Shown one piece after another: positions 10,884 to 26,102 of a stretch of DNA of 36,864 nt. The notes below the pieces were generated by a model. The model did no database searches, was not told the DNA's origin, and saw only the letters and a program-made list of their open reading frames with translations. A program made the position numbers and the translations under genes. Source of the stretch: Kiritimatiellales bacterium (GTDB lineage: Bacteria; Verrucomicrobiota; Kiritimatiellia; UBA8416; JAIOPI01); contig CAMFEP010000004.1 in assembly GCA_945949405.1 (NCBI GenBank), forward strand, positions 1-36,864, written 5' to 3'. Numbering within the stretch: the first letter of the stretch is position 1; each line of letters starts with the position of its first letter.

Positions 10884-13800
10884 TTACGGATACACGGGTT
10901 CCATGACGCCGATGCGGTAGAAGAAGGTACGGTTTGTGCCGAGTGTGCTGGGGTAGGTGTTGATGGGCGGCGTGGCGGGCAATCCGCCCTGGATCAGGCC
11001 GTATGGGCCCGCCACGTTGGTGCGGCCGAAGACCGAGTAGATCCGGTTCGACAGGCTGTCCCATTGCAGCAGGTGGCCGGTTACCGTGAGCGTCTCCTGG
11101 GTCTCCACGATCGTCACGGTGCCCGTGCTCGCGAAGACGTCGATCATGAAGAAGGCGGCGGCGCTGGTCGGATCCGTGCCCGCCCAGTACTCGGCCTGGT
11201 TGGACTGGCCATCCCCATCGCTGTCCACGTTGGGAGCGCCGTTGGTGGTGCCGCCAAAATATTGCTGCTCCCATGTATTGGGGAGTCCGTCGCCATCCTG
11301 ATCGTAGGGGAAGGGGTAATTGGGGCGTCCTGGGGTGAGCACGCCGCCGGACGGGAAGTTCGTGCTGGCGATGGCGGCGTTGTAGGTTTTGCCGAGCGGG
11401 TCGCCGCCCGTCGTAATCACGTCACCGTTGAACCATGCCGAGGCGTCCTGGGGCACGCGGTTGGTTTGCAGGCGGCTGGCGCCGTCGGGCCAGTCGCTGG
11501 TTTGGGCCAGGGTCGCCGGGACGTAGACGCTGTCGCCCACATCGCCATCCCGCCAACCCACGCCGTCGAGCAGCGCGCCCCAGGGCGCGCCGTCGAGAAT
11601 GCCGTTGTTGTCGAGATCGAGGTCGGCGCCCACGAACACGGAGGCGAGGCAGTTTTGTACGAGGAGGAGGGTGATTGATGTGTTTTGCAGTGTGGCGGGG
11701 ACATAGTCGGCATCGCCCAGGCCGGTATGCGGCGAGACGTGATTCGACCAGGATCCGCCTGCCGTGGTGTTATAATTGTCACCCACGAGCAGCAAGCCGT
11801 TGGTGCCGAAGGCCAGGCCATCCAGATTCCACCGTCCGTAAACAAAGCCGCGATCGATCAGGTTTCCGCTGATCTCAATGACGGACAGATTGGTGGCGCT
11901 GCCGCCGCCCGCGACCTGCAACAATTCGATGAATTCAAAATCGTTCGTGTCGAGCAGCCCGACCGGGTTGACGAGGACTTCGTTCAACAGGACCGCGCCT
12001 TCGCGGGCGACGGTGACCTGCGCGGAAGCCAGGCGCCCGACTTGATTGGTGGCGCGCACGGTGATGGTGTTGATGCCTGGCACGATGGGCAGGGCGGCGG
12101 CCAGCCAGTTGGTGCCCGCAGGGGTGGTGCCCGTGGCGCCAGTCAAGGCGTTGGACCAGGTGATGAGGCCGCTGACGACGGCGTTGGCGGTGCCGCCGAC
12201 CTGACGCGAGGTGATGCTGTTTGCCAGCGTCACGGGGCCGGAGGGATCGGTGATGGTCAGGGTTGGGGCGGGGATGCGATAAATGTTTACGGTCGCATTG
12301 GTGCTACGGCTGACGATGTTACTGGCGGTGACGGTGATGGTGTTGGTGCCGAGGTTGAGGGCGATGCCCGCGAGGGACCAACTGGTCGAGGCTGGTCCGC
12401 TGCCGGAGCCGCCGGTGAGATTATTGGTCCAGCGCAGCAGGCCGCCGACGACGTCGTTGGCGGTGCCGGAGAGGGTGGTGTTGGTGACGAGATCCGAAAC
12501 TGCCGAGAACGTGGCGGGGTTGGTGATGGACAGGAGCGGCGCGTCCACGCGATAGACTTGGACGGTGGCGGTGTTGGCGCGGCCGACGATGTTGCTGCCG
12601 GTGACAATGATCGCGTTGGTGCCGAGGCCGAGCGGGATGTTGAGGATCGACCAACTGGTGGAGGCGGTGGCGGAGCCGCTGCCGCCGGTCAGGTTGTTGG
12701 TCCAGCGCAGCAGGCCGAAGATTTCGCCGCCGGCGGTACCCGACAAGTTTGTGGCGAGCACGTCGTGTGCGACGGCAGTGCCGTTCGCGGGGTTGGTGAT
12801 GGCCAGCGTGGGGACGGGGACGCGGTAGATATTGACGGTCGCGTTGGTGCTGCGGTTGACGCTGTTGCTGGCGGTGACGGTGATGGTGTTGGTGCCGAGG
12901 TTGAGGGCGATGCCCGCGAGGGACCAACTGGTTGAGGCAGGTCCGCTGCCGGAGCCGCCGGTGAGATTATTGGTCCAGCGCAGCAGGCCGCCGACGACGC
13001 CGTTGGCGGTGCCGGAGAGGGTGGTGCTGGTGACGAGATCCGAAACTGCCGAGAACGTGGCGGGGTTGGTGATGGACAGGAGCGGCGCGTCCACGCGATA
13101 GACTTGGACGGTGGCGGTGTTGGCGCGGCCGACGATGTTGCTGCCCGAGACGACGATGGCGTTGGTGCCGAGGCCCAGCGGGATGTTGAGGATCGACCAA
13201 CTGGTGGAGGCGGTGGCGGAGCCGCTGCCGCCGGTCAGGTTATTGGTCCAGCGCAGCAGGTCAAAGATTTCGCCACCGGCGGTACCCGACAAATTGGCGA
13301 CCAGCACGTCATGCGCGACGGCGGTGCCGTTCGCGGGGTTGGTGATGGTGAGGGTAGGGACGGGGACGCAATAGACGCTGACGCTGGCGTTGGTGGATTG
13401 CTGGAGAATATTGGTGCCCGTCACGGTGATCAGATTCGTGCCGAGTGCAAGGGGGATACCGGGGATTGACCAGTTGGTGCTGGCGGACGACGTGCCGCTG
13501 CCGCCGGTGAGGTTATTGGTCCAACGCAGCAGGCCGCTGACAAAGGCGTTGGCGGTGCCATTGACGGTCACGGCGACGGCGGTGTCCGGGACATTGGTGC
13601 TGGCGGGCGGTGAGGTGATCGACAGCACCGGGAGCAGCACGCGGTTGATCTGCACGCTGGCGGTGTTCGTGCTACCGACGGTGTTCGTGCCGATCACCGT
13701 GATCGTGTTCACGCCGGCACCCAGCGAGAGACCGGGAATGGTCCAGTTGGTGGAGGCCGGGATGGTTCCCGTGAGGCCGGTCAGTCCATTCGTCCACACG

Positions 13801-14609
13801 ATGTTCCATACGACGCCGAAATTGGCGGTTCCCTGCACGTCGTAGTTCGTCACCGCTTCGCCCACCACAATGTTCGTGGCGGGGTTGGTGATCGTGATGC
13901 TGGGGGTGATGGCGTCGCCGGTGATGCGGATGTCGTCGAAGAGCGCCTCTTCCGACGTGCTGCTCATTAAGAGGAGGGCGCGCACTTGCAGTCCCGTGCC
14001 TAGACTGGAAAGCAGGTATTGAAAATCGGCGAAAGTATGGGTGAGGGTGGTGCCGTTGCCAATGCCGTCCTGGTTTGTATCTTCCTGCAAATATCCCGAG
14101 CCGGCCGGGCCGCGAAAAATGGACAGATTGGTCCAGGCACCGGCATTCAACGCGGCTTGTAGAATCATGTAGTCGGCGCTTTCATAGGGGGTGCCTCCAA
14201 AGGCCGCATCGCGTCCGATGCCGAGTGCCCAAGTCACGCGCAGGTTCTGGAAACCGCGCACATCCACCGCACCCAGCGTGACGTTGCACTCGCCGGGGCC
14301 GCTCAAATCGGTGTCCTCGCCGCCCCAGAAATTGGAGCCGTGCAGTCCGGCCATGGCCTGTCCCAGGGCAAAATCGGTATTGCCGCCGCGTTTAAAATAC
14401 TGATTCACGGCGGCCGAGTTGGTGCCATGCTCACCGAGCACCGTGTAATTCGTGCCATCGGTGGCGCTCTCAAAATTTTCCTGGCGCAGTGTGATGGCGA
14501 AGAGGGACAGGGGCGCCAGCCAGAGCAGGGACGCGAGCGCGTGACGGACAGCGCGGACCTGGCGGGTGAAACGACCGACAATCTTCGTACGAGTACCGAT
14601 ATCCTGCAT
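10884..14609 (-). CDS. Large exported protein: seven Ig-like repeats, lamin-tail-like domain, Ca-binding-type segment
   Basis: 1241 residues from the ATG at 14609, with GGGAG 8 nt upstream; a longer reading frame lacks that site. Residues 1-38 are a signal peptide. An N-terminal globular region (about 39-233) precedes seven ~91-residue repeats, each with a TITNP start, LLRWTNNLTGGSG centre and a GTN-x-ITV ending. They resemble bacterial Ig-like modules. Next comes a lamin-tail-like domain (LLNEVLVNP...FEFIEL), then DQDGDGLPNTWEQQYFG and DSDGDGQSNQAEYWAGTDP, as in thrombospondin-3-type calcium repeats. The C-terminus has the SNRIYSVFGRTN...FFYRIGV ending common in exported proteins of this group. 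Probably cell-surface or secreted; partner unknown. Repeats 3-4 and 5-6 are a recent duplication. Confidence 0.85.
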   Translation of the reverse strand: MQDIGTRTKIVGRFTRQVRAVRHALASLLWLAPLSLFAITLRQENFESATDGTNYTVLGEHGTNSAAVNQYFKRGGNTDFALGQAMAGLHGSNFWGGEDTDLSGPGECNVTLGAVDVRGFQNLRVTWALGIGRDAAFGGTPYESADYMILQAALNAGAWTNLSIFRGPAGSGYLQEDTNQDGIGNGTTLTHTFADFQYLLSSLGTGLQVRALLLMSSTSEEALFDDIRITGDAITPSITITNPATNIVVGEAVTNYDVQGTANFGVVWNIVWTNGLTGLTGTIPASTNWTIPGLSLGAGVNTITVIGTNTVGSTNTASVQINRVLLPVLSITSPPASTNVPDTAVAVTVNGTANAFVSGLLRWTNNLTGGSGTSSASTNWSIPGIPLALGTNLITVTGTNILQQSTNASVSVYCVPVPTLTITNPANGTAVAHDVLVANLSGTAGGEIFDLLRWTNNLTGGSGSATASTSWSILNIPLGLGTNAIVVSGSNIVGRANTATVQVYRVDAPLLSITNPATFSAVSDLVTSTTLSGTANGVVGGLLRWTNNLTGGSGSGPASTSWSLAGIALNLGTNTITVTASNSVNRSTNATVNIYRVPVPTLAITNPANGTAVAHDVLATNLSGTAGGEIFGLLRWTNNLTGGSGSATASTSWSILNIPLGLGTNAIIVTGSNIVGRANTATVQVYRVDAPLLSITNPATFSAVSDLVTNTTLSGTANDVVGGLLRWTNNLTGGSGSGPASTSWSLAGIALNLGTNTITVTASNIVSRSTNATVNIYRIPAPTLTITDPSGPVTLANSITSRQVGGTANAVVSGLITWSNALTGATGTTPAGTNWLAAALPIVPGINTITVRATNQVGRLASAQVTVAREGAVLLNEVLVNPVGLLDTNDFEFIELLQVAGGGSATNLSVIEISGNLIDRGFVYGRWNLDGLAFGTNGLLLVGDNYNTTAGGSWSNHVSPHTGLGDADYVPATLQNTSITLLLVQNCLASVFVGADLDLDNNGILDGAPWGALLDGVGWRDGDVGDSVYVPATLAQTSDWPDGASRLQTNRVPQDASAWFNGDVITTGGDPLGKTYNAAIASTNFPSGGVLTPGRPNYPFPYDQDGDGLPNTWEQQYFGGTTNGAPNVDSDGDGQSNQAEYWAGTDPTSAAAFFMIDVFASTGTVTIVETQETLTVTGHLLQWDSLSNRIYSVFGRTNVAGPYGLIQGGLPATPPINTYPSTLGTNRTFFYRIGVMEPVYP
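12280..13371 (-). repeat. 546-bp tandem duplication inside the exported-protein gene
   Basis: Two adjacent units of 546 bp (about 12280-12825 and 12826-13371; edges approximate) are nearly identical, with runs of over 100 identical bases. For example, the stretch reading 'agatccgaaactgccgag' recurs exactly 546 bp apart. Each unit encodes two of the ~91-residue Ig-like modules. The flanking modules are clearly more diverged. Confidence 0.9.
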
Positions 14610-14674
14610 GTCTGGGTCTCCCGCCGAGCCTTCATGCCGTGATGGCGTCGCGCTTGCAGTCAAATCAAATGGTA

Positions 14675-14942: not shown

Positions 14943-15812
14943 ATGAAGTTAAGCGGGCATACAAAACCTTACGCGGTACTTGGCCATCCGATTGGCCATA
15001 CCTTATCCCCGGTGATGCACAACGCATCCTTTCAGGCGCTGGGACTGGACGCCATTTATCTTGCCTTCGATGTGCATCCGGACCGGTTGCTGGCGGTTCT
15101 GGCATCCATGCGCGACATGGGGTTTGGCGGCGTGAATCTGACCGTGCCACTCAAGGAATTTGCGTTCCGGGGCTTGCAGAATCTGGATGTGACCGCGCGC
15201 CGGCTTGGTGCCGTCAACACGGTGGAGTTTCTGGCGGACGGCACGCTCAAGGGATACAACACGGACGGCGGCGGTTTTTTGACGGCGGTGGAGGAGGCCT
15301 TCGCCACGCGGGTGGGGGGCAAGCACCTGTTCGTGCTCGGGTGCGGCGGGGCCGGGCGCGCCGTGGCGCTCACGGCGGCAGCCGAGGGTGCAGCGCAACT
15401 GGCGCTGGCGGATGTTGACGCGGCGCGCGTGGAGCGGCTCGCGCAGGAAATTCGCAATGAGTTTCCTGCGTGCGCGCTGGTGTCCGCCGCGGGCAGCGAC
15501 GCATGGGCCCGGGCCAGCCGCGAGGCCGAGCTCGTGGTGCAGAGCACACCGGTCGGGATGAAGCCCACAGACGCCACGCTATTGGGGCCGGACGCGTTTC
15601 GCCCGGGCCAGATGGTGTTTGACCTTGTCTATATGTATCCGGAAACCGCATTCATGAAGGCGGCCGCGGCAGGCGGGGCGCGCACCAGCAATGGCCTCGG
15701 CATGCTGTTGCATCAGGGCGCGCGCGCGTTCAAAATTTGGACTGGCACGGATGCCGATGTGGCGGCGATGCGCCGGGCGCTTGAGGCGTCGGTCTACGGC
15801 GAAAAACCATGA
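14943..15812 (+). CDS. aroE: Shikimate dehydrogenase
   Basis: 289 residues, normal length for AroE. It reduces 3-dehydroshikimate with NADPH in aromatic amino-acid synthesis, in the cytoplasm. TLSPVMHN (20-27) is the shikimate-binding SLSP-type motif. NLTVPLK gives the catalytic Lys71, and Asn92 and Asp108 (YNTDGGGF) complete the active site. The cofactor loop is GCGGAGRA (133-140). NGLGMLLHQGA near the C-terminus is also family-typical. The stop overlaps the prepilin peptidase start (ATGA 15809-15812), so the two are translated together. GGGTGAA upstream is a modest ribosome site. Confidence 0.95.
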   Translation: MKLSGHTKPYAVLGHPIGHTLSPVMHNASFQALGLDAIYLAFDVHPDRLLAVLASMRDMGFGGVNLTVPLKEFAFRGLQNLDVTARRLGAVNTVEFLADGTLKGYNTDGGGFLTAVEEAFATRVGGKHLFVLGCGGAGRAVALTAAAEGAAQLALADVDAARVERLAQEIRNEFPACALVSAAGSDAWARASREAELVVQSTPVGMKPTDATLLGPDAFRPGQMVFDLVYMYPETAFMKAAAAGGARTSNGLGMLLHQGARAFKIWTGTDADVAAMRRALEASVYGEKP

Positions 15813-16690
15813 CTCCAGAACAGGCACAGCAGTCCCTTGCGCTCTGGTGGGCGGCTTTTTCCGTGATTGCCTTTGCCTGGGGGGCTTGCATCGGCAGTTT
15901 TCTCAACGTGTGCATTTATCGAATTCCCCGCGAGGAATCCATCGTGCGCCCGCGCTCCCACTGTCCACACTGTGGCCGCGCGATTCCGTGGTATCTGAAC
16001 ATTCCCATCGTCAGCTACATCCTTTTGCGCGGCCGTTGCGCGGATTGCCGCAGGGGGATTTCGCCCCGATATGTGCTGGTTGAACTACTGGTGGCGGTGC
16101 TGTTCTGGATGGTGTGGCAGCAGTTCGGCTACGCCGGCGATCATCCACCCTTGGGGATGGTGCCCATTGCGGTCGAACATATGGCCCTGGTCCCTATTGC
16201 CTGGCTGATCATTGGCGGGCTGGTGCTGGGCACGTTCGTGGATTTCGAGCACCTCATCATTCCCGATCGCGTCACGCTGGGCGGGATCGGGGCTGGGTTG
16301 GTGTTGAGCGGGGTGTTTCCCGAAATGCAGGGGCAGTCCACGGCGCTGGGGGGGCTGGCGCAAGCGGCCATCGGCGCGGGATTGGGTTGGGGCATCCTGT
16401 GGGCCGTGGCGGTGGCGGGGAAACTGGTCTTCCGCAAAGACGCCATGGGCTTTGGCGACGTCAAGTTACTTGGGGCCATCGGGGCCTGCCTCGGCTGGCG
16501 CGCGGTGTTGTTTACCCTGATCCTTTCCTCATTCATGGGATCGCTGGCCGGGATTATGATGGTGCTCGCGGGACAAAAGCAGATGCAGAGCCGGATTCCC
16601 TTTGGTCCGTATCTGGCGTTGGGCGCGGTGCTCTGGATGTTCTGGGGTCCGACGTGGTGGCAGGCCTATCTGGAGTTGATGACGCCTTGA
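15809..16690 (+). CDS. Type IV prepilin peptidase / N-methyltransferase
   Basis: 293 residues, polytopic inner-membrane aspartic protease of family A24. It cleaves and methylates type IV prepilins or pseudopilins of type II secretion. The N-terminal cytoplasmic domain has two zinc-type pairs, Cys52-x-x-Cys55 and Cys77-x-x-Cys80, as in the bifunctional PilD/GspO form. The catalytic aspartates are Asp145 (VDFEHLIIPD) and Asp217 (GFGDVKLL). The start overlaps the aroE stop by 4 nt. The stop lies in a tandem repeat (16676-16706). No pilin gene with the usual processing motif is visible in the window, so its substrates lie elsewhere. Confidence 0.94.
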   Translation: MTPEQAQQSLALWWAAFSVIAFAWGACIGSFLNVCIYRIPREESIVRPRSHCPHCGRAIPWYLNIPIVSYILLRGRCADCRRGISPRYVLVELLVAVLFWMVWQQFGYAGDHPPLGMVPIAVEHMALVPIAWLIIGGLVLGTFVDFEHLIIPDRVTLGGIGAGLVLSGVFPEMQGQSTALGGLAQAAIGAGLGWGILWAVAVAGKLVFRKDAMGFGDVKLLGAIGACLGWRAVLFTLILSSFMGSLAGIMMVLAGQKQMQSRIPFGPYLALGAVLWMFWGPTWWQAYLELMTP

Positions 16691-16772: not shown

Positions 16773-16784
16773 TTTCCCGTGAGA

Positions 16785-17516
16785 ATGACTACACGCTGCA
16801 TCCTTGCCGTGATCCTTGCGAACGCAAGCTTGAGCGTCACAGGCCGTGCCGCGATGACGCACCCCGATTTCTCGCACTACGAAATTATTTTGCAGCGCAA
16901 ACCGTTTGGCGCGCCGCCCCCCGTGGTGATTGTTCAGCCGCCCCAGCCGACGATCGCGCCGGAAGATGCGTTCATCAAAAACCTGCGCTTGTGCGCCATC
17001 ACGGAAGACGATGATGGCATTCGCGTGGGGCTAGTGGACTTGATGGCCAAACCGCCCAAGAGTTACTTCCTCTATGTGGGCGACATCGAAGATGGCATCG
17101 AATTGGTGCAGGCGGACTATGCCAAGGAGAGTGCCCTGCTGCGCAAAGGCGTGGAGGAGTACTGGATATCGATGGTCGATGACAAAGGGATGGTGATTGC
17201 CACGCCGGCGTCAACGCCGACGCCCACCGGCGGCATTGGGGAGCCCTCGGGCGTCGTCATGCCACCGGGTGTTGGCGTAGCGACGGAGCGGCGGCTTTCC
17301 TATGCGGAGCGGTTGCGCAAGCGTCGCGAGGCCGAAGAGGCGCGGATGCAGGAGATCGCGGCCCGCCCCCAACTGGAACCGGAGGAGATGGAGAAAAAAT
17401 TGCAGGATTTCCAGATGCAGGTGATCCGTCGCGGCGAACCGCCCTTGCCAATTCCCCTGACGCCCGAGATGGATGATCAACTTGTGGCGGAGGGGGTCCT
17501 GCCGCCGTTGGAATAG
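16785..17516 (+). CDS. Exported protein of unknown function (beside prepilin peptidase)
   Basis: 243 residues from ATG 16785; GTG 16779 would add two. A signal peptide (ILAVILANASLSVTGRA) is followed by FSHYEIILQRKPFG, a proline-rich linker, and a compact domain (about 50-125: AFIKNLRLCAI...GIRVGLVDL...SYFLYVG...GIELVQADYAKESALLRKG). The second half is low complexity, then Arg/Glu-rich helical (YAERLRKRREAEEARMQEI), with a proline-rich end. I recall similar small exported proteins in this bacterial group but know no function. Proximity to a prepilin peptidase allows a link to type IV pilus or type II secretion assembly, as a periplasmic scaffold (speculative). No Shine-Dalgarno sequence is seen. 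Confidence 0.75.
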   Translation: MTTRCILAVILANASLSVTGRAAMTHPDFSHYEIILQRKPFGAPPPVVIVQPPQPTIAPEDAFIKNLRLCAITEDDDGIRVGLVDLMAKPPKSYFLYVGDIEDGIELVQADYAKESALLRKGVEEYWISMVDDKGMVIATPASTPTPTGGIGEPSGVVMPPGVGVATERRLSYAERLRKRREAEEARMQEIAARPQLEPEEMEKKLQDFQMQVIRRGEPPLPIPLTPEMDDQLVAEGVLPPLE

Positions 17517-17722: not shown

Positions 17723-18424
17723 ATGAAGCGGAGTTTGATGGGATTGTTTGGCTGCCTGTTGGCGACGAGCGCACTGGCGCAAGGGCCGGTGTACAGCGTC
17801 AACATCGTTGGTTTTAACAAGCACGTTTTGGAACGCGGCAAATTGTACATGATTGCCACTGCGTTTGAAGACGTCGGCACTGATGGCGTTTTGGCTTTGC
17901 GCGCGAACGACGTCTTCGGAAATCAATTACCGAACGGCACCACGGTGAACTATTATCACCCCTCCAGCACAAACGATCTCACGCCGTACGATCAGGATGC
18001 GAAGAACTTTGCAGGTTGGAGTTCCAACATCGTGTTTCAAGGATTCATGGGTTTCTGGGTCAAAACTCCAGCTACGCCTGCCGGTGCTCCCTACGAGTTG
18101 GTCATGAAGGGGCAGGTTCCGATGGACGGCTCATCTTCAAACCTGGTGGGCGGGGGGTTGAACATGTTGGGCTATCCCTATACTGCCGATGTGAAGTTTA
18201 CGAATACGGGTTTGTTCGCGAGTTCAATCAACGGGGACCAGTTATTTGTTTGGGATGGGGCCATAACCAATTACAATCCACCGGCTGGATTTTCCAAAAA
18301 TTTCGCTGGTTGGGGCCCAGCCACGAACCTGACGTTGCGCATGGGAGTCCCCTTTTGGTACAAGCGAAACAGCGGTTCGCCAATTTTGGAGACGGAAGTT
18401 AGGCCCTATCCTCCGGCAAACTGA
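17723..18424 (+). CDS. Exported two-repeat protein of unknown function
   Basis: 233 residues, with GGAGG (17713-17717) ideally placed before ATG 17723. Residues 1-19 are a signal peptide ending ALA-Q. The mature start (GPVYSVNIVGFNK) is shared by exported proteins I associate with Kiritimatiellota/Verrucomicrobiota. The body is two similar halves. Each begins with a hydrophobic LYMIA or LNMLG strand and ends with KNFAGW...GFWVK (about 94-114) or KNFAGW...PFWYK (about 193-214). That suggests a duplicated beta domain. No catalytic motif or sorting signal is evident. It is followed by a PEP-CTERM gene 50 nt downstream. Base composition is visibly less GC-rich than its surroundings. Confidence 0.82.
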   Translation: MKRSLMGLFGCLLATSALAQGPVYSVNIVGFNKHVLERGKLYMIATAFEDVGTDGVLALRANDVFGNQLPNGTTVNYYHPSSTNDLTPYDQDAKNFAGWSSNIVFQGFMGFWVKTPATPAGAPYELVMKGQVPMDGSSSNLVGGGLNMLGYPYTADVKFTNTGLFASSINGDQLFVWDGAITNYNPPAGFSKNFAGWGPATNLTLRMGVPFWYKRNSGSPILETEVRPYPPAN

Positions 18425-18474
18425 TTTAAGTCTGACATGACGTGCAGGCGGTAAAGAAACAGGAGCAATATTCA

Positions 18475-19083
18475 ATGAAGATGATGAAACTTATGGTGGT
18501 GATGGGGGCCTTGTGTGGTACGGCGTCCATGGCGTCGGCCGCTTCAATCAGCCTGTCCCTGTTGACATCCCAGGGACTTTTCATGGATGCAGGCTTAACC
18601 ACGTTGGTGCCGGCCGGTGCCTACTATCAGGTATACTGGTCAGCAGACTCCACCTATGGTGGGAACAGTATCCTGGAATCTGACGCCGATTTGGGTGTCG
18701 ACGGAACGACTCCGGCTTCATTTGGGGACTATGTTATCTTTACAGGAAACACGGACATTGATGGTGGATTAAGTTCACCAGTGGCCACCGGAGCGTTGGG
18801 TAATTCGGCGGTGGGTGGTTCCACCATTTCATCCGGGTTCGTGTATATGTACGTGTACGAGGATGGGAGTCCAGACGTTGGTGATTCCTATGTGCGAAGC
18901 GAGGTCTACGGGAACACATGGGGAGACCCCGGTGCGGCGCTTCCCCCCCCTCCGGACGCCATTGACGTGGCAGCGACGGAGCCCGCCGTCATGGGTTCAT
19001 TTTTTGTCACTCCCGAACCCGGGACGATGGCGTTGTTCGGAATTGGTATTCTGACTATGGCCGCCCGCCGGCGCCGGAAGTAA
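18475..19083 (+). CDS. PEP-CTERM sorted exported protein
   Basis: 202 residues from ATG 18475, with AGGAG 9 nt upstream. A signal peptide (to ASAA, about 23) precedes a beta-rich body with many Gly/Ser/Asp. The C-terminus has the three-part PEP-CTERM signal: TPEPGTM, a hydrophobic helix (ALFGIGILTMA) and the basic ARRRRK end. Such proteins are processed by an exosortase at the inner membrane and usually moved to the surface or into exopolysaccharide. No exosortase gene lies in the window. A strong terminator follows 39 nt after the stop. Confidence 0.92.
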   Translation: MKMMKLMVVMGALCGTASMASAASISLSLLTSQGLFMDAGLTTLVPAGAYYQVYWSADSTYGGNSILESDADLGVDGTTPASFGDYVIFTGNTDIDGGLSSPVATGALGNSAVGGSTISSGFVYMYVYEDGSPDVGDSYVRSEVYGNTWGDPGAALPPPPDAIDVAATEPAVMGSFFVTPEPGTMALFGIGILTMAARRRRK

Positions 19084-19122
19084 TATCGACTGTCGTTCAC
19101 TGTACGTTAAACGCGAAGTATG

Positions 19123-19158
19123 GAAGCCTCGATAGCAATATCGAGGCTTCTTGCTTTT
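19123..19158 (+). terminator. Rho-independent terminator
   Basis: A perfect 12-bp stem, GAAGCCTCGATA (19123-19134) with TATCGAGGCTTC (19139-19150), closed by a GCAA tetraloop of the stable GNRA type. It is followed by TTGCTTTT. It ends the 17723-19083 transcription unit. Confidence 0.88.
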
Positions 19159-19171
19159 AAAGGACAGAGTC

Positions 19172-19774
19172 ATGTGTGCTTTACGCATTCCGACGTTTGT
19201 ACTTGTCCTCCTGTCTGTCGTTACACGGAGTCTAGCGCAACAGTCCGAATTTTCGGGTTCAAAAGTGCAGATCCTGATTGCCGGAGAAATCGGGCAGCGT
19301 TGGGAAGGCCAGATTCGTGAATATTTTCATGAAAATCTTTGGATTCAATCGGATTTTCGCCGTATCGACGCCATCACAAATGGCGTTGCATCCCATATGC
19401 CGTCTTGCTGCCTGGAGTCCCCCTTGGCAAGAAATACCGTGACCGTGTGTATCGTGGATGGTCCTGTGCCAGCGTGTGGCGCCAATGTGGGCGCCTTTGA
19501 TCTCTTTCCGGAACAGCGCTGTGGCGTTGTGTGGGCGGCGTGCCTAAAGCCAGAGGAGGAGGCAGGCGATCCGGGTGCGGATGGCGTTTGGCTGGCGCGT
19601 ATTCAAAAACAAACGTTGTTTGTCGCGGCACGCTTGATGGGAAAAATTGAATGCCCTTTCTGGCTTTGTGTCATGCATGCTGATGAAACGATTGAGGATG
19701 TGGATTTCAAAGCACGCGGCTTTTGTCCACCTTGCCGTGAACGAATGGGCACACTGGTGGGCTTTCCAAATTGA
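19172..19774 (+). CDS. Exported archaemetzincin-like protein lacking the zinc/catalytic site
   Basis: 200 residues from ATG 19172, with AAAGGA about 8 nt upstream; an in-frame TTG at 19151 lies at the foot of the terminator. Residues 1-22 are a signal peptide (LVLLSVV...LAQ). The C-terminal part has the cysteine framework of archaemetzincins (M54): Gly157-x3-Cys161-x4-Cys166-x-Met168, then 16 residues and Cys185-x-x-Cys188 (family usually 17), with EDVD-x-K between. Exactly where HExxH should be, the residues are Phe150, Val151 and Arg154. The fold and structural cysteines appear kept while both zinc histidines and the catalytic glutamate are gone. It is therefore read as a secreted pseudo-protease. 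The assignment is from motif spacing alone. Confidence 0.65.
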   Translation: MCALRIPTFVLVLLSVVTRSLAQQSEFSGSKVQILIAGEIGQRWEGQIREYFHENLWIQSDFRRIDAITNGVASHMPSCCLESPLARNTVTVCIVDGPVPACGANVGAFDLFPEQRCGVVWAACLKPEEEAGDPGADGVWLARIQKQTLFVAARLMGKIECPFWLCVMHADETIEDVDFKARGFCPPCRERMGTLVGFPN

Positions 19775-19804: not shown

Positions 19805-22738
19805 ATGAGGCGGGTGCTGCCGCTTGTTTTTTTGTCGGGCTTTTCCGCCCTTGTTTACGAATTGCTCTGGTTCCGTCAACTGGGACTGGTGTTCGGCAAC
19901 ACCGTTCAGGCCGCCAGCACCGTTCTGGCGGCCTACATGTTGGGGATGGCGGGCGGGGCCGCACTGGCGGCTGGCCACACCGGATGTCTGCGCAAACCGC
20001 TACGAACCTTCGTTTTGCTTGAACTTGGCATTGGGGTTAGTGCGGCGATTCTGCCCACGTGTTTTGCCGTGGTGCAGAACTCCGGGTGGCTCGCGGTGTT
20101 TGGAGTCTGTTCCGGAAATGAAATTGTCCTCCCGCGCTTTGGGTTGAGTCTGGCCCTCCTGCTGGCGCCGACCCTGTTGATGGGGGCGACACTTCCAGTG
20201 CTCGCCAGCGGGTTCCTGCATGACCGGAAACATTTTGGCGCCCAACTCGGGCACTTGTACGGAATCAATACCCTTGGCGGTGTCGCCGGAGTCTTGTGCG
20301 CGGGCTTTTACGGCTTGCCGGTGTGGGGGATCCGCGGCACCACGCAGGCGGCGATCGGAGTCAATCTTGCGGTGGCGTTGCTGGCCATGGGACTGAATCG
20401 CACCGCTCCGGCACCGCACCGCTCGCTCACGCTCGCGGCTACAGTGGAATCCTTGCCTTCCACCACACGCAGCTTCCGCGGCATTTTACTGGCGGCAGCC
20501 GCCCTCTGTGGATTTTTGGCGTTGGCCTTCGAAACCGTCTGGTTCCGTGCCTTGATCCTGGTGTTTGGTTCCACGACGTATTCGTTCTCCTTGATGCTCG
20601 CCGTCTTTCTGGCGGGGATTGGACTCGGTGCGGCGCTCCTTGGCCGGCTGGCCGATCGATGCCGCCAGCCGGTAGTGCTTCTGGTTGCCGCACAAGTGGG
20701 CGTTGGGCTGTGGACGCTGGGGTCTTTATACATGTTCCCTGCGGCGCCTGGCCTGTTCCTTGAATATTTGGTCCACACCCAGTTTACCTGGATCGGTCTG
20801 GTGGTCGGCAAAACCTTGGCGGCGGTTGCCTTTTTGTTTCCGCTGGCATTCTTGTTCGGGATTTCGTTTGCCACGGTGGCGTCTTGCATGCGGGCAGAGA
20901 ACGTGTCGGCGGCACGGGCCGTTGGCATGGCCAGCATGGCCAATACCGCCGGCGCGGCCATTGGTGCCACCATCGCGGGCTTCTGCCTGTTGCCCTGGCT
21001 GGGGCTGGCAAAATCCGTCATGCTGCTCGCGCTGCTGGCCCTGGCGCTTGCCGCATTCATCGCGCTTGCCGCGCGTGCGGCAATGTGGCTGCGTGTGCTG
21101 GCGGCCTGCGTCGTTCTGGCGGCGGGTCTTTGGGTCTGCGCGTGGCCACCGCGTTGGGAGCCGTTGATGCTTTCGGCGGGAGCCCATTTTGCACCTTGGA
21201 ACTATGTGGAGGGTAAGCGCATCACGCTGCGCGAACACCTGCGCAACGAGCGGTTGCTATTCTATCGCGAGGGTGTTTCCGTGACCGTGTCCGTCACGCA
21301 GACCGTCGATGAAAAACTTTTTTTCTGCAGCGACGGCAAGGTGGAGGCGGACACATCGCCACGCAGCATGGTGCTGCAGCGCATGATCGGGCATTTGCCG
21401 ATGTTGTGCCACCCGGCGCCGAAACGCGTTTTGAACATCGGCCTGGGGGCTGGCGTTACGCTGGGGGCGCTCGCCTGCCATGCGCCGGAAGCACTTGAGG
21501 TGGCGGAGATCGAACCGGCGGTTACAAATGTCGCCATGCTGTGGTCTGCGTGGAATGGCGCGGTGCTTTCACATCCCAATCTCCGTTTGCATGTAAACGA
21601 TGGCCGCAACCATTTGCTGGTGACCACCAGCCGCTACGATGTGATCACCTCCGACCCCTTCGAACCCGTGATGGCCGGGGCCGGGAACCTGTACACCGTC
21701 GAACACTTCGCCCTCGCCCGCCGGCGCCTGGCACCGGGTGGCATCATGGGGCAGTTCCTGCCGCTTTATGAACTTTCCGCCGAGGATTTGCGGATCATCA
21801 TGCGCTCGTTCATGCACGTCTTTCCGCATGCCGCGATCTTCTTCACCGGTTACGACACGATTCTGCTCGGGTTCACCGAAGGCGCAGGAATCGACATGGC
21901 GGTGATCGCGCGAAACGCCTCCCGGCCCGTGGTGCGTGAGTCACTGGCAGCGACAGGATTTGAGCACCCCGAACAGATTCTGGAAATGCTGGTGCGGGAG
22001 ACCATGGACGGCGCGCGTTTTATCGAGCCGGGCATGCGCAACACGGATGACCGGCCGGTGATTGAATTCTCCGCGCCCCGCAGCGCGCTTGATTATCAGC
22101 CCGACGCCAATCAGCGGGTGCTACTCGCGTTATTTCAGCAGGCTCCTGAGTATTCCTGGATGGGTTTGACGGAGGAACTCATTACGCAGGTGCAGCGAGG
22201 ACGGGAGGCGATGCGACATGTCTTGCAGGCTAACATCATCAGGGCATCCGGAGATTTGCAGGGCAATATTGACTTGATAATGAAGGCGCACCAGGAGGCC
22301 CCAGGTAATCCCGTCATTCGCAACGAGCTCGCCGCATCGCTCGCGTCCGTTGCAGGATTGTTTTTGCAACGTGGGGAGTTGCAGAAAGCAGCGGTGCAAT
22401 TTGAGGTTGCGTTACGCGTACAGCCCGGCGATTTTTGGCCGCTGTACCACCTGACACACCTGGCCATGTCAGCGGGTCAACGCGAAGCCGCGGAGGCCAT
22501 GTTGCAACAAGGGCTGATCGCGTATCCCGACGCGCCACTCTGGATTGCGTTGCGGGGGAAAATCGCCGGCGAAGGGGGTGACGCGGCCGCTGCCTGCCGC
22601 GATTTGCGCGTGGCGTTGGAGGCGTTGCCGCGCAACCCCGAGTTGTGGGAGCAATACGCGCACTATTTGGATAAGGCCGGCGAGGTGGCGGCAGCGCGCG
22701 ATGCCCATGCGCATGCCGCGCAATTGCAGCAGCGCTAG
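19805..22738 (+). CDS. Polytopic spermidine-synthase-like (SAM-fold) protein with TPRs
   Basis: 977 residues. The first ~440 residues are hydrophobic with about 12-14 membrane segments (FLSGFSALVYELLWFRQ is the family opening). It is repeated in weaker form near residue 238 (LALAFETVWFRALIL). Next is a spermidine-synthase-type Rossmann domain: RVLNIGLGAGVTLGAL (about 540-555), EIEPAV, VNDGRNHL and SDPFEPVMAGAGNLYTVEHF. Enzymatic aminopropyl transfer is unproven in such fusions, and the usual GGGDG glycine run is altered to GLGAG. TPR-like helices fill the last ~230 residues. A dispersed repeat encodes SLTLAAT in the linker between the two membrane halves. Likely an envelope protein; partner unknown. 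It leads a run with a glycosyltransferase and a UDP-sugar enzyme. Confidence 0.85.
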   Translation: MRRVLPLVFLSGFSALVYELLWFRQLGLVFGNTVQAASTVLAAYMLGMAGGAALAAGHTGCLRKPLRTFVLLELGIGVSAAILPTCFAVVQNSGWLAVFGVCSGNEIVLPRFGLSLALLLAPTLLMGATLPVLASGFLHDRKHFGAQLGHLYGINTLGGVAGVLCAGFYGLPVWGIRGTTQAAIGVNLAVALLAMGLNRTAPAPHRSLTLAATVESLPSTTRSFRGILLAAAALCGFLALAFETVWFRALILVFGSTTYSFSLMLAVFLAGIGLGAALLGRLADRCRQPVVLLVAAQVGVGLWTLGSLYMFPAAPGLFLEYLVHTQFTWIGLVVGKTLAAVAFLFPLAFLFGISFATVASCMRAENVSAARAVGMASMANTAGAAIGATIAGFCLLPWLGLAKSVMLLALLALALAAFIALAARAAMWLRVLAACVVLAAGLWVCAWPPRWEPLMLSAGAHFAPWNYVEGKRITLREHLRNERLLFYREGVSVTVSVTQTVDEKLFFCSDGKVEADTSPRSMVLQRMIGHLPMLCHPAPKRVLNIGLGAGVTLGALACHAPEALEVAEIEPAVTNVAMLWSAWNGAVLSHPNLRLHVNDGRNHLLVTTSRYDVITSDPFEPVMAGAGNLYTVEHFALARRRLAPGGIMGQFLPLYELSAEDLRIIMRSFMHVFPHAAIFFTGYDTILLGFTEGAGIDMAVIARNASRPVVRESLAATGFEHPEQILEMLVRETMDGARFIEPGMRNTDDRPVIEFSAPRSALDYQPDANQRVLLALFQQAPEYSWMGLTEELITQVQRGREAMRHVLQANIIRASGDLQGNIDLIMKAHQEAPGNPVIRNELAASLASVAGLFLQRGELQKAAVQFEVALRVQPGDFWPLYHLTHLAMSAGQREAAEAMLQQGLIAYPDAPLWIALRGKIAGEGGDAAAACRDLRVALEALPRNPELWEQYAHYLDKAGEVAAARDAHAHAAQLQQR
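20419..20442 (+). repeat. Dispersed palindrome inside a gene (stem + CTAC tail)
   Basis: CCGC (20419-20422) pairs with GCGG (20435-20438), followed by CTAC (20439-20442). The inner 12-mer TCGCTCACGCTC is the same as at 447-458 and in the same frame. Confidence 0.55.
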
Positions 22739-22925: not shown

Positions 22926-25900
22926 ATGGAAACGACACGTGCAAACAGGTGGGATGTCCTGCTTTCGGTTGTTTTGGGCCTGCTGGCTTTTGTTGTGTAC
23001 CTGATGACGCTGGCTGTCGGCGCGTTTCCCGGCGAGTTTTCCGCAATCCTCACCCAAAGCGCCGGCCTTTTTCCACGGCTTGGGCCCGATTATCCGCTTT
23101 GGTTTGGTCTTGGCAAGGGCTTGCAACAATTGCATGCCGCTGATCCGGCCGCCCCGTTCAATATCGCGAGCGCCGTGGCGGGCGGCATGTCGGTCGGGCT
23201 TGTCTGCCTGGTCATGATTCAATTGATTCTGGGCGTGATGCGCGAGGACGAGGACAACGACACCCACGCACGCAGCGCCGCGCGCCTGGCCGGTGCCGGT
23301 GCGGCCCTGACGCTGGCGTTCTGCATTCCATTCTGGGTGGTTTCCACACGCTGCCATTGGGCCGGGATGCATGTGGCGCTGTTTCTTCTCACCACGCATG
23401 TATTTCTTCGCGCGGTGTTCGGAGGCACGCGCTGGACGGTGTTGCTCTTTGGCCTGCTGTATGGCGTCGGGGTCGTGGAGTATCCCACCATGATGGTGTT
23501 CGGGCCGTTGTATGCGATTGTCCTGCTCTTGGCCCTTCACCATCGCGAGGAACTTGAATTTCGCAATTGGGCACCCGGAATTGCCGGTTTTATTGCCGGG
23601 TTGAGTTTGTATGGCATTGCCGTGTGGTGCTTTGTTGGAACGCCTGGCTATGCGTTGTGCGAGTATCATGGTTTTTACGATGTGCTGTGGGCGTTGTGGC
23701 GGAATCAGTGGTTGTTGTTGTCCCGCAGTCTGCCCAGCCAGGGGTGGCTGGTGGTGCTCGTGGTCACCATTTTACCGGCGGTCGTGGCGTTGCTGGTGGC
23801 GCGCCGTGCCCTGAACGCCGAGCACGACTGGACGTATTATGTATTGCATGTGGTGCTGACACTGCTGGCGGTGGTGGTGATTCTAAACGCATTCACGATC
23901 GGTGGGTTCCAAGTGGCGGTGTCGCCTTGGGCGCTGATGGGATACCGGCGCATTCTGGTGATGCCCTATGTGCTGCTCGCCGCCCTGGTTGGCTACCTGC
24001 TCGCCTACTGGTATTTGCTGCCCGCGCCCTGGCTGCATGCGCGGTCGCGTGGCATTGGCCGCGCGGTGCGCCACATCGCCGGGCCTGTCATGGTGGCCGC
24101 GGGTTTCGTGCTGCTGGGCGTGACGGTGTTCCGCAACCTGCCCCTTGCCGATGGTCGTGCCTCGACGATGATCCGCCAGGTGGCTGCGGAAACCGTGCGC
24201 TGTCTCGATGGACGAACGTGGTTGGTCACGGATGGTTCGCTCGACGGCGCCTTGCTGGTTGAAGCACGCCGGCAAGGCGTTGCGTTGCGGCTGATTGATC
24301 TAAACGCCGAACAAAGCCCGATAATGAAGCGTTACATTGCCAGCGCATTTACGAATTCTCGCATGCAAAATCTGGCGCTGTTGGGCACGCACACCATGCT
24401 GCGTAGCTGGATCGAGCAGGATGCGGGGACTCTCGACCGTGTTGCCACCATGGTGAATCCAAACCTTTGGAGTGGCGCAGGCTATCAGGCCATCCCGAAC
24501 GGCCTGATTTTTCTCGGTGCGCGCACTGGGAGCAGCCTTGATCCAGTTGCCATGATGGGCCGTCATCGTGAACTTTGGAAGGGCCTGCTGGCGATACCCC
24601 ATCGCGCGGTGTCCGGACGCATCGGCCCATTGGATATGTACTGGGGGCACATCCGGCGCCAAGCCGGTATCGTGGCGAACAACCTGGGCGTGTTAATGGA
24701 AGACCACGGGCGCAAGACAGAAGCCTACGAAGCGTACACGATGGCGCGCACGTTCGTACCACAGAACAGCAGCGCACTTATGAATCAGTACACCATGGTG
24801 CAACAAGGTTTTCCCGCTTCCGATGCTGAGGCTGTGCGCAAGGATCTGGCGGCGTGGGGGCAGTCTATCGAGGGCCACAAACCGAAGATCAGCACCTTAA
24901 TGCAACGGCATGGCGATGTGAGGTCTCCGATGTCATTTGCCAGCCTGGGGTATGAGTGGGCCATGGCCGGGCAGCCAGAATTAGCGGCGTCAGGTTTGCG
25001 TCGAGCGATGGGGCTGGTTCCGGAAAAAGGGCGGAAGGGCTACAAGCAGGCGCTGGCCGGTCTGTATTTGATGCAGAACCAAGACGATGAAAGCGAGGCC
25101 TTGTTTTACGAGTTGCTGGTGGAAAATCCCGCGAACCAAACCGCGCTCCTTGGAATGGCGCGCATTGAACAGCAACGTGACAATTCCGTCAAAGCCCGCG
25201 ACTATCTCGTCCGCGCCGCGCAGGCGGGGGTTCCCGGGGATTTGATGAATCTGGAATGGGCGGCGTTCTACGTTTCCACCGACGACCTCAAGCAGGCCAA
25301 GGCATTGCTGCGTAAGACGTTGGAGAAACAACCGGACCTCATCCGTGCCCTGGCGATGCTGACGACGATCAACATCCAGGAACGCGATGCCCTCGGGCTC
25401 GTCGACACGATCCGGGGCATCAACCGCGCGAAACAGGGCAACGCCGAGTTGCTGTCGATCGCCAATGGATACCTTGCGATCATGCAGGATGACCTGGGGG
25501 GGGCGTCGATTGCGTTTGAAAAAGCGCTGGCGATGCGTCCAGGTGACAAGCAACTTTTGGAGTGGCTAGTGCGACTGGATATTCTGCAGGGGCAAACCGA
25601 GCCCCTTGAACGCCGCCTCAACCAATTGTTGCGCGTGGATCCCTCCAATGCCCAGGGAAACTTTCTGCTGGCCGCGATCCAGAGTGCGCGGGGCGAATCA
25701 GCACTGGCGAGAGATTCACTCATGGAAAGCCTGAAAACCCAGCGCACTCCCGAGGCCTTGAATGATCTGGCGTGGCTGCTGCAGGAAAGCGGTTTATACA
25801 AGGAGGCGGAAGCGCATGCTCGAGCGGCCCTGGAAATGCGCGCCGATATTCCGCAGATTTGGGATACCCTGGGAACAATCCTCTTCAAAACCGACCGCCT

Positions 25901-26102
25901 GGAAGAATCGCGGACGGCGCTTGAGAAGGCGCTCGCACTTGAGGCGGACAGCATCCCGATTATCCTGCACCTGGCCGAGTTGGATCTGAAACAAGGCCGC
26001 CGCGACGTCGCCGTCCGGCGGCTGGACGAACTCACGGCGCGGCGTTCGGACATGAGCACCGCCGATCGCGAGGCGTTGGATGACTTGCAGCGGCAATTAT
26101 AA
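22926..26102 (+). CDS. DUF2723-like membrane glycosyltransferase with TPR domain
   Basis: 1058 residues. About 12 membrane segments fill residues 10-420. The first loop (VYLMTLAVGAFPGEFSAILTQSAGLF...PDYPLWFGLGKG) corresponds to the acidic catalytic loop of the DUF2723/PMT-like lipid-linked sugar transferases. Here the usual D-x-GE reads FPGE, so the Glu is kept and the preceding Asp is not. The second half is a soluble region with at least eight TPR-like helix pairs (EALFYELLVENPANQTALLGMARIE and following), probably docking partners in the periplasm. It is probably an envelope or protein glycosylation enzyme using a lipid-linked sugar, but the altered loop leaves activity open. It is followed at 24 nt by a UDP-sugar pyrophosphorylase. 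Confidence 0.82.
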   Translation: METTRANRWDVLLSVVLGLLAFVVYLMTLAVGAFPGEFSAILTQSAGLFPRLGPDYPLWFGLGKGLQQLHAADPAAPFNIASAVAGGMSVGLVCLVMIQLILGVMREDEDNDTHARSAARLAGAGAALTLAFCIPFWVVSTRCHWAGMHVALFLLTTHVFLRAVFGGTRWTVLLFGLLYGVGVVEYPTMMVFGPLYAIVLLLALHHREELEFRNWAPGIAGFIAGLSLYGIAVWCFVGTPGYALCEYHGFYDVLWALWRNQWLLLSRSLPSQGWLVVLVVTILPAVVALLVARRALNAEHDWTYYVLHVVLTLLAVVVILNAFTIGGFQVAVSPWALMGYRRILVMPYVLLAALVGYLLAYWYLLPAPWLHARSRGIGRAVRHIAGPVMVAAGFVLLGVTVFRNLPLADGRASTMIRQVAAETVRCLDGRTWLVTDGSLDGALLVEARRQGVALRLIDLNAEQSPIMKRYIASAFTNSRMQNLALLGTHTMLRSWIEQDAGTLDRVATMVNPNLWSGAGYQAIPNGLIFLGARTGSSLDPVAMMGRHRELWKGLLAIPHRAVSGRIGPLDMYWGHIRRQAGIVANNLGVLMEDHGRKTEAYEAYTMARTFVPQNSSALMNQYTMVQQGFPASDAEAVRKDLAAWGQSIEGHKPKISTLMQRHGDVRSPMSFASLGYEWAMAGQPELAASGLRRAMGLVPEKGRKGYKQALAGLYLMQNQDDESEALFYELLVENPANQTALLGMARIEQQRDNSVKARDYLVRAAQAGVPGDLMNLEWAAFYVSTDDLKQAKALLRKTLEKQPDLIRALAMLTTINIQERDALGLVDTIRGINRAKQGNAELLSIANGYLAIMQDDLGGASIAFEKALAMRPGDKQLLEWLVRLDILQGQTEPLERRLNQLLRVDPSNAQGNFLLAAIQSARGESALARDSLMESLKTQRTPEALNDLAWLLQESGLYKEAEAHARAALEMRADIPQIWDTLGTILFKTDRLEESRTALEKALALEADSIPIILHLAELDLKQGRRDVAVRRLDELTARRSDMSTADREALDDLQRQL

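Follow-up and report, generated by a model that had tools for sequence, protein, structure and literature searches.

The window analysed here, 36,864 nucleotides of a Kiritimatiellales bacterium (contig CAMFEP010000004.1), contains a run of genes on the forward strand that leads from a prepilin peptidase, through a PEP-CTERM gene, to a large TMEM260-like membrane protein. Between the last two lies an intact reading frame of 200 codons whose product we call pAMZ, for exported pseudo-archaemetzincin. The features of the locus are the following.

15809..16690, forward: type IV prepilin peptidase (A24), in the same order in genome G001
16779..17516, forward: u245, a conserved neighbour from a family with no Pfam or NCBIfam match
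17723..18424, forward: u233, a secreted-looking conserved neighbour, likewise from a family with no Pfam or NCBIfam match
18442..19083, forward: PEP-CTERM sorting-domain protein (PF07589, TIGR02595), start codon uncertain
19122..19151, forward: terminator-like hairpin between the PEP-CTERM gene and pAMZ, with its end some 20 nt short of the pAMZ start codon
19172..19774, forward: pAMZ coding sequence, 200 aa, from the ATG at 19172 to a stop codon ending at 19774; supported by M54 matches, relatives and fold
19172..19237, forward: signal-peptide-like N terminus of pAMZ, residues 1-22, MCALRIPTFVLVLLSVVTRSLA; supported by its sequence, a helix at residues 5-27 of the AF2 model and the hydrophobic N termini of relatives
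19619..19651, forward: degenerate counterpart of the HExxHxxGxxH active site, reading F150-V-A-A-R154-L-M-G157-K-I-E160, from an alignment with 12 HExxH enzymes
19652..19735, forward: retained frame C161-x4-C166-x-M168-x16-C185-P-P-C188, equivalent to the Cys4 site of archaemetzincins, from sequence and alignment
19805..22738, forward: fused MFS/spermidine-synthase-like protein with TPRs, which separates pAMZ from the TMEM260-like gene in some genomes
22926..26102, forward: TMEM260-like (DUF2723) membrane protein with TPRs, a divergent paralogue linked to pAMZ
23013..23042, forward: first-loop segment of the TMEM260-like protein, AVGAFPGEFS, where the paralogue has TLEDSGEL

The gene order u245, u233, PEP-CTERM, pAMZ, with or without the MFS/spermidine-synthase-like gene, and then TMEM260-like recurs in this bacterial order. 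A divergent TMEM260-like gene lies within about 4 kb on the same contig in 13 of the order's 16 pAMZ genomes; in one of the exceptions (G011) pAMZ is near a contig end. The same neighbour occurs in other orders (G056, G041, G345), and at 20 loci from many other families a seryl-tRNA synthetase gene (serS) follows pAMZ; G345 combines both arrangements as TMEM260-like, pAMZ, serS. An old gene order is by itself no proof of shared function. Since every one of the order's 31 genomes has TMEM260-family genes, the joint presence or absence of the two genes is uninformative, and the divergent form is also found in genomes in which pAMZ was not detected nearby. Elsewhere in the window, the reverse strand at 10884-14663 encodes a 1259-aa protein made up of many near-identical repeat units of the type TITNPANGTAVAHDVLVANLSGTA.

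The hairpin upstream of pAMZ has a 13-pair stem and a T-rich tail, and the segment 19110-19180 folds at -30.1 kcal/mol (z=-5.8). Strong hairpins with a different stem sequence occupy the corresponding interval in six other genomes (G001, G002, G007, G017, G020, G004). Because little promoter space is left after the hairpin, read-through is the simplest reading of pAMZ transcription, and the position of the hairpin suggests that read-through would yield a lower level of pAMZ. A search of the literature on PEP-CTERM proteins or exosortases in Kiritimatiellota found nothing usable.

Archaemetzincins have the fingerprint HEXXHXXGXXHCX4CXMX17CXXC (PMC3427221). Of this, pAMZ retains G157-x3-C161-x4-C166-V-M168, followed by D178-F-K180 and C185-P-P-C188, with 16 residues between M168 and C185 in place of 17. 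The first half is gone: the three histidine ligands and the glutamate of HExxHxxGxxH are all absent (F150, V151, R154 and E160 take their places). The preliminary description had already read F-V-A-A-R at the position of HExxH, with ligands and catalytic glutamate lost and the C-x-x-C pair off by one, and the alignment bears out each of these points. It also placed the gene directly downstream of a PEP-CTERM gene in a less GC-rich stretch, as is the case (54-56% around pAMZ versus about 62%), and proposed a signal peptide; MCALRIPTFVLVLLSVVTRSLA, followed by Q, resembles one, and a hydrophobicity heuristic agrees. The possibility of a genuine M54 peptidase was rejected, as FVAARLMGKIE occupies the HExxHxxGxxH position.

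The profile search and the structural comparison proposed in the preliminary description both lead to archaemetzincins, and neither of the two outcomes that it named as refuting occurred. The Pfam model of the M54 family (PF07998) matches residues 139-192 with E=4.4e-4 and 20.8 bits, slightly below its cut-off of 24.4 bits. The NCBIfam archaemetzincin model matches with E=1.3e-7, far under its own cut-off, and NF033824 (non-proteolytic archaemetzincin-like), which from its name we take to be the model of CarG, matches with 2.6e-5 and 24.1 bits, short of its curated cut-off of 250 bits. Ten of the 19 aligned relatives match M54, several of them above the Pfam cut-off (e.g. G001 with 34 bits and G052 with 32.6 bits), and a sequence search of the PDB gave weak matches to solved archaemetzincins and to nothing else. 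An AF2 model of the window protein, whose input included six relatives, has a mean pLDDT of 77 and a pTM of 0.74; its five Foldseek matches below 1e-3 in the PDB are all archaemetzincin chains (2x7m, 3lmc, 3zvs A and B, 4axq). The model of one relative (mean pLDDT 85.7) has the same five chains on top, down to 5.5e-10, and next ADAM10, another metzincin. pAMZ is therefore predicted to have the archaemetzincin fold.

Relatives of pAMZ are numerous and diverse. Those in the same genus share 35-37% identity with it, divergence within the genus spans 32-37% identity, and others are spread across the class. At E<=1e-3, a profile built from 19 members has matches in 143 of the class's 346 genomes and in 71 of its 121 genera (the class is probably Kiritimatiellia); some TPR-linked forms and HExxH enzymes, though few, are among those counted. 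The family is large, and about one third of the class genomes, if not more, carry it. Named relatives come from MAGs of Verrucomicrobia, Lentisphaerae and 'Victivallis', and none were found on the viral contigs searched. In a phylum-wide sample, 12 of 75 matched genomes lie outside the class, and the 11 sequences read from these are ten HExxH enzymes and one TPR-linked degenerate form. A set of longer exported paralogues (L058-L068, L073, L077, L185, L187-L189) was also collected, many with a conserved C-terminal GWAPxPTNDxQKAIW and with up to seven matches in a single genome (G228). Weak matches to family f48, suspected of being something else, turned out to be such longer degenerate paralogues.

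HExxH is present in none of the 86 core relatives and none of the 17 members of the longer sub-family, which answers the search for orthologues with HExxH suggested in the preliminary description: the enzymes that keep it lie across a supported branch (below). The first histidine position is arginine in 70/86 core proteins and in all 17 longer ones; the glutamate position is mostly Ala, Ser, Gly or Val in the core proteins, and the third histidine is most commonly replaced by Pro. Among these 86 and 17 proteins there is no conserved His, Glu or Cys left that could build an alternative catalytic site. Other parts of the frame are retained, with the aspartate D178 in 83 of the 86 core proteins and the first and second prolines of CPPC in 86 and 82, respectively. 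The structural cysteines remain in the window protein, as the preliminary description stated, but this does not extend to the family: the core patterns are CCCC (44), xCxx (23), xxxx (16) and three intermediates, so that about half lack three or all four cysteines, almost as all or none; L132 and L160 are examples of Cys-less relatives. The Cys4 state requires six changes on the tree; a contrast test of coupled cysteine loss comprised four to five independent contrasts in total, one of them starred, and does not amount to a statistical demonstration. Because about half of the family has lost the cysteines as well, neither metal site is needed for its persistence. The reading frames of the relatives listed are intact, with no stops. 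By a simple rule, 85 of the 86 core proteins have a strongly hydrophobic N terminus, the single exception being borderline, and a loose lipobox pattern occurs in 9/86, several of them clear (e.g. L056, L142, L151).

Archaemetzincins that keep the active site are also present in these bacteria. One ordinary enzyme in the same order (L071, HELGHTFGLTHC) has no signal peptide; an exported archaemetzincin with HExxH (L103) occurs in the same class, and nine of ten further HExxH enzymes, found elsewhere in the phylum in other classes, are hydrophobic at the N terminus. The proteins in which an export signal seems to accompany the complete HExxH are L103, L120-L122 and L124-L129, and the view in the preliminary description that the known family is cytoplasmic does not hold for this phylum. 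A quick tree, which has no outgroup to root it and leaves many forks open, separates all 79 pAMZ rows from the 12 active enzymes and the four TPR-linked proteins with a degenerate domain by a branch with an SH-aLRT of 97. It favours a single origin of pAMZ without proving it, and this separation makes the loss of the catalytic residues, which is family-wide, an ancient one. The TPR-linked proteins (L072/L099, L100, L076/L115, L119) are large, with the degenerate archaemetzincin domain at the C terminus, and some are apparently exported. They group with the active enzymes and not with pAMZ, so they probably represent a separate, second loss of the active site.

The TMEM260-like neighbour has lost a motif of its own. 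Besides a TMEM260 gene that scores strongly, genomes of this order commonly carry a divergent paralogue. TMEM260/DUF2723 proteins are O-mannosyltransferases; the acidic first-loop residues of TMEM260 are predicted to be catalytic (PMC11292533), and in PMTs a DE motif in that loop catalyses transfer (PMC12705809). Canonical paralogues (L202-L211) have LED-GEL...HPPGYP in the first loop in 10/10 inspected (TLED-GEL; GLEDSGEL in L210). The divergent copies, linked to pAMZ (L027, L078-L084, L086, L087, L092-L094) or not (L190-L201), mostly have G-A-[FY]-P-G-x-[SA] here, without the acidic pair; the loss of the acidic residues between TM1 and TM2 applies to the window copy as well as to the linked ones. 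The neighbour may therefore be non-catalytic, possibly a pseudo-glycosyltransferase.

Our main reading, to which we give a probability of about 0.7, is that pAMZ is an exported pseudopeptidase of archaemetzincin fold, without zinc-protease function, that would be retained for binding as a member of a large class-wide family. Sequence and prediction give good support to the existence of an exported, non-catalytic archaemetzincin-fold family, and it is at this level that the fold, the family-wide catalytic loss, the export signals, the long-term conservation and the conserved gene order are established. From here we infer a binding role, in which pAMZ would be a small module of the cell envelope, located in the periplasm or at the surface, that holds a protein partner via the former substrate cleft or via the part of its surface near the conserved R143, D178 and P186-P187. 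The first partner candidates, and in this order of bacteria the likeliest, would be the product of the TMEM260-like/TPR neighbour or its clients, such as PEP-CTERM surface proteins. Against this partner stand the serS neighbourhood elsewhere, by which genes may keep their order without being functionally coupled, and the presence of the divergent TMEM260-like gene where no pAMZ is detected; the fast divergence of pAMZ among members of the genus would also fit a role under weak constraint. That pAMZ and the TMEM260-like TPR protein, as two adjacent pseudoenzymes, work together in an envelope complex that serves PEP-CTERM or other exported proteins as a receptor or chaperone, without catalysis, is a tentative and somewhat doubtful extension.

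The four cysteines with their CPPC motif, in an exported protein, could instead point to a periplasmic redox or metal-carrier protein to which the loss of the active site is irrelevant, and the near-set loss of cysteines is as expected of one unit. However, about half of the family lacks them and still keeps the rest of the frame, both prolines included; redox or metal carriage is for that reason not the common function of the family, though it could be that of the Cys4 members, and we regard this explanation of pAMZ as unlikely. Catalysis by other residues on the same fold, as a hydrolase or another kind of enzyme, e.g. by the arginine that replaces the first histidine, is quite unlikely: the prevalence of this arginine hints that selection acts on the former active site, but the window protein has phenylalanine there. 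Of the polar residues, R143 and D178 alone are nearly invariant, and they look structural because HExxH enzymes carry both.

It is very improbable that pAMZ is a once-active exported archaemetzincin now decaying. Active exported forms do exist in the phylum and identity among relatives is low, but the frames in the listed matches are free of stops, residues, signal peptide and gene order are conserved over the whole class, and the supported pAMZ branch makes the loss ancient. Convergence or chance as the source of the archaemetzincin likeness is the least credible of all: the window protein does fall just under the Pfam cut-off, but relatives exceed it, Foldseek ranks archaemetzincins first for two AF2 models, and the Cys4 spacing and the beta-sheet frame are held in common.

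Even in their role as enzymes, archaemetzincins are poorly understood. Here a class-wide exported form has discarded the catalytic site, and several lineages have lost the second metal site too, while the scaffold is kept; the family offers a natural series for asking what roles the fold has besides proteolysis. It may also point to a novel envelope complex in a mostly uncultured group.

Compared with the solved M54 archaemetzincins (2x7m, 3lmc, 3zvs, 4axq), pAMZ has the predicted fold, the methionine of the Met-turn and the Cys4 frame in common and lacks the HEXXHXXGXXH half. The exported HExxH archaemetzincins of the phylum resemble it in export signal and domain, but keep all ligands and the glutamate and lie across the supported branch; the TPR-linked degenerate forms likewise have no HExxH, and are long and TPR-containing where pAMZ is not. 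M54 is absent from a review of inactive metallopeptidases (PMC11266112), and no description of an exported inactive archaemetzincin family was found in the open-access library searched. For inactive archaemetzincins as such there is a precedent in CarG. More distantly, animal ADAM11/22/23 are metzincin-fold pseudopeptidases that act by binding, but belong to another family with another domain architecture (PMC11266112).

CarG of Myxococcus xanthus, reported from myxobacteria only, is an established inactive archaemetzincin with HQxxH and two bound zincs, which works with CarD in transcription (PMC8156234, PMC3427221). Like pAMZ, it has the archaemetzincin frame without protease function; its spacing C-x4-C-x-M-x16-C-x2-C is that of pAMZ, and its gene lies beside that of its partner (carD-carG) (PMC8156234, PMC3427221). 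In contrast with the window protein, which has no ligands and bears an export signal, CarG is cytoplasmic and keeps HQxxH and its zinc ligands, and the putative signal peptide of pAMZ would speak against a CarG-like cytoplasmic role with CarD.
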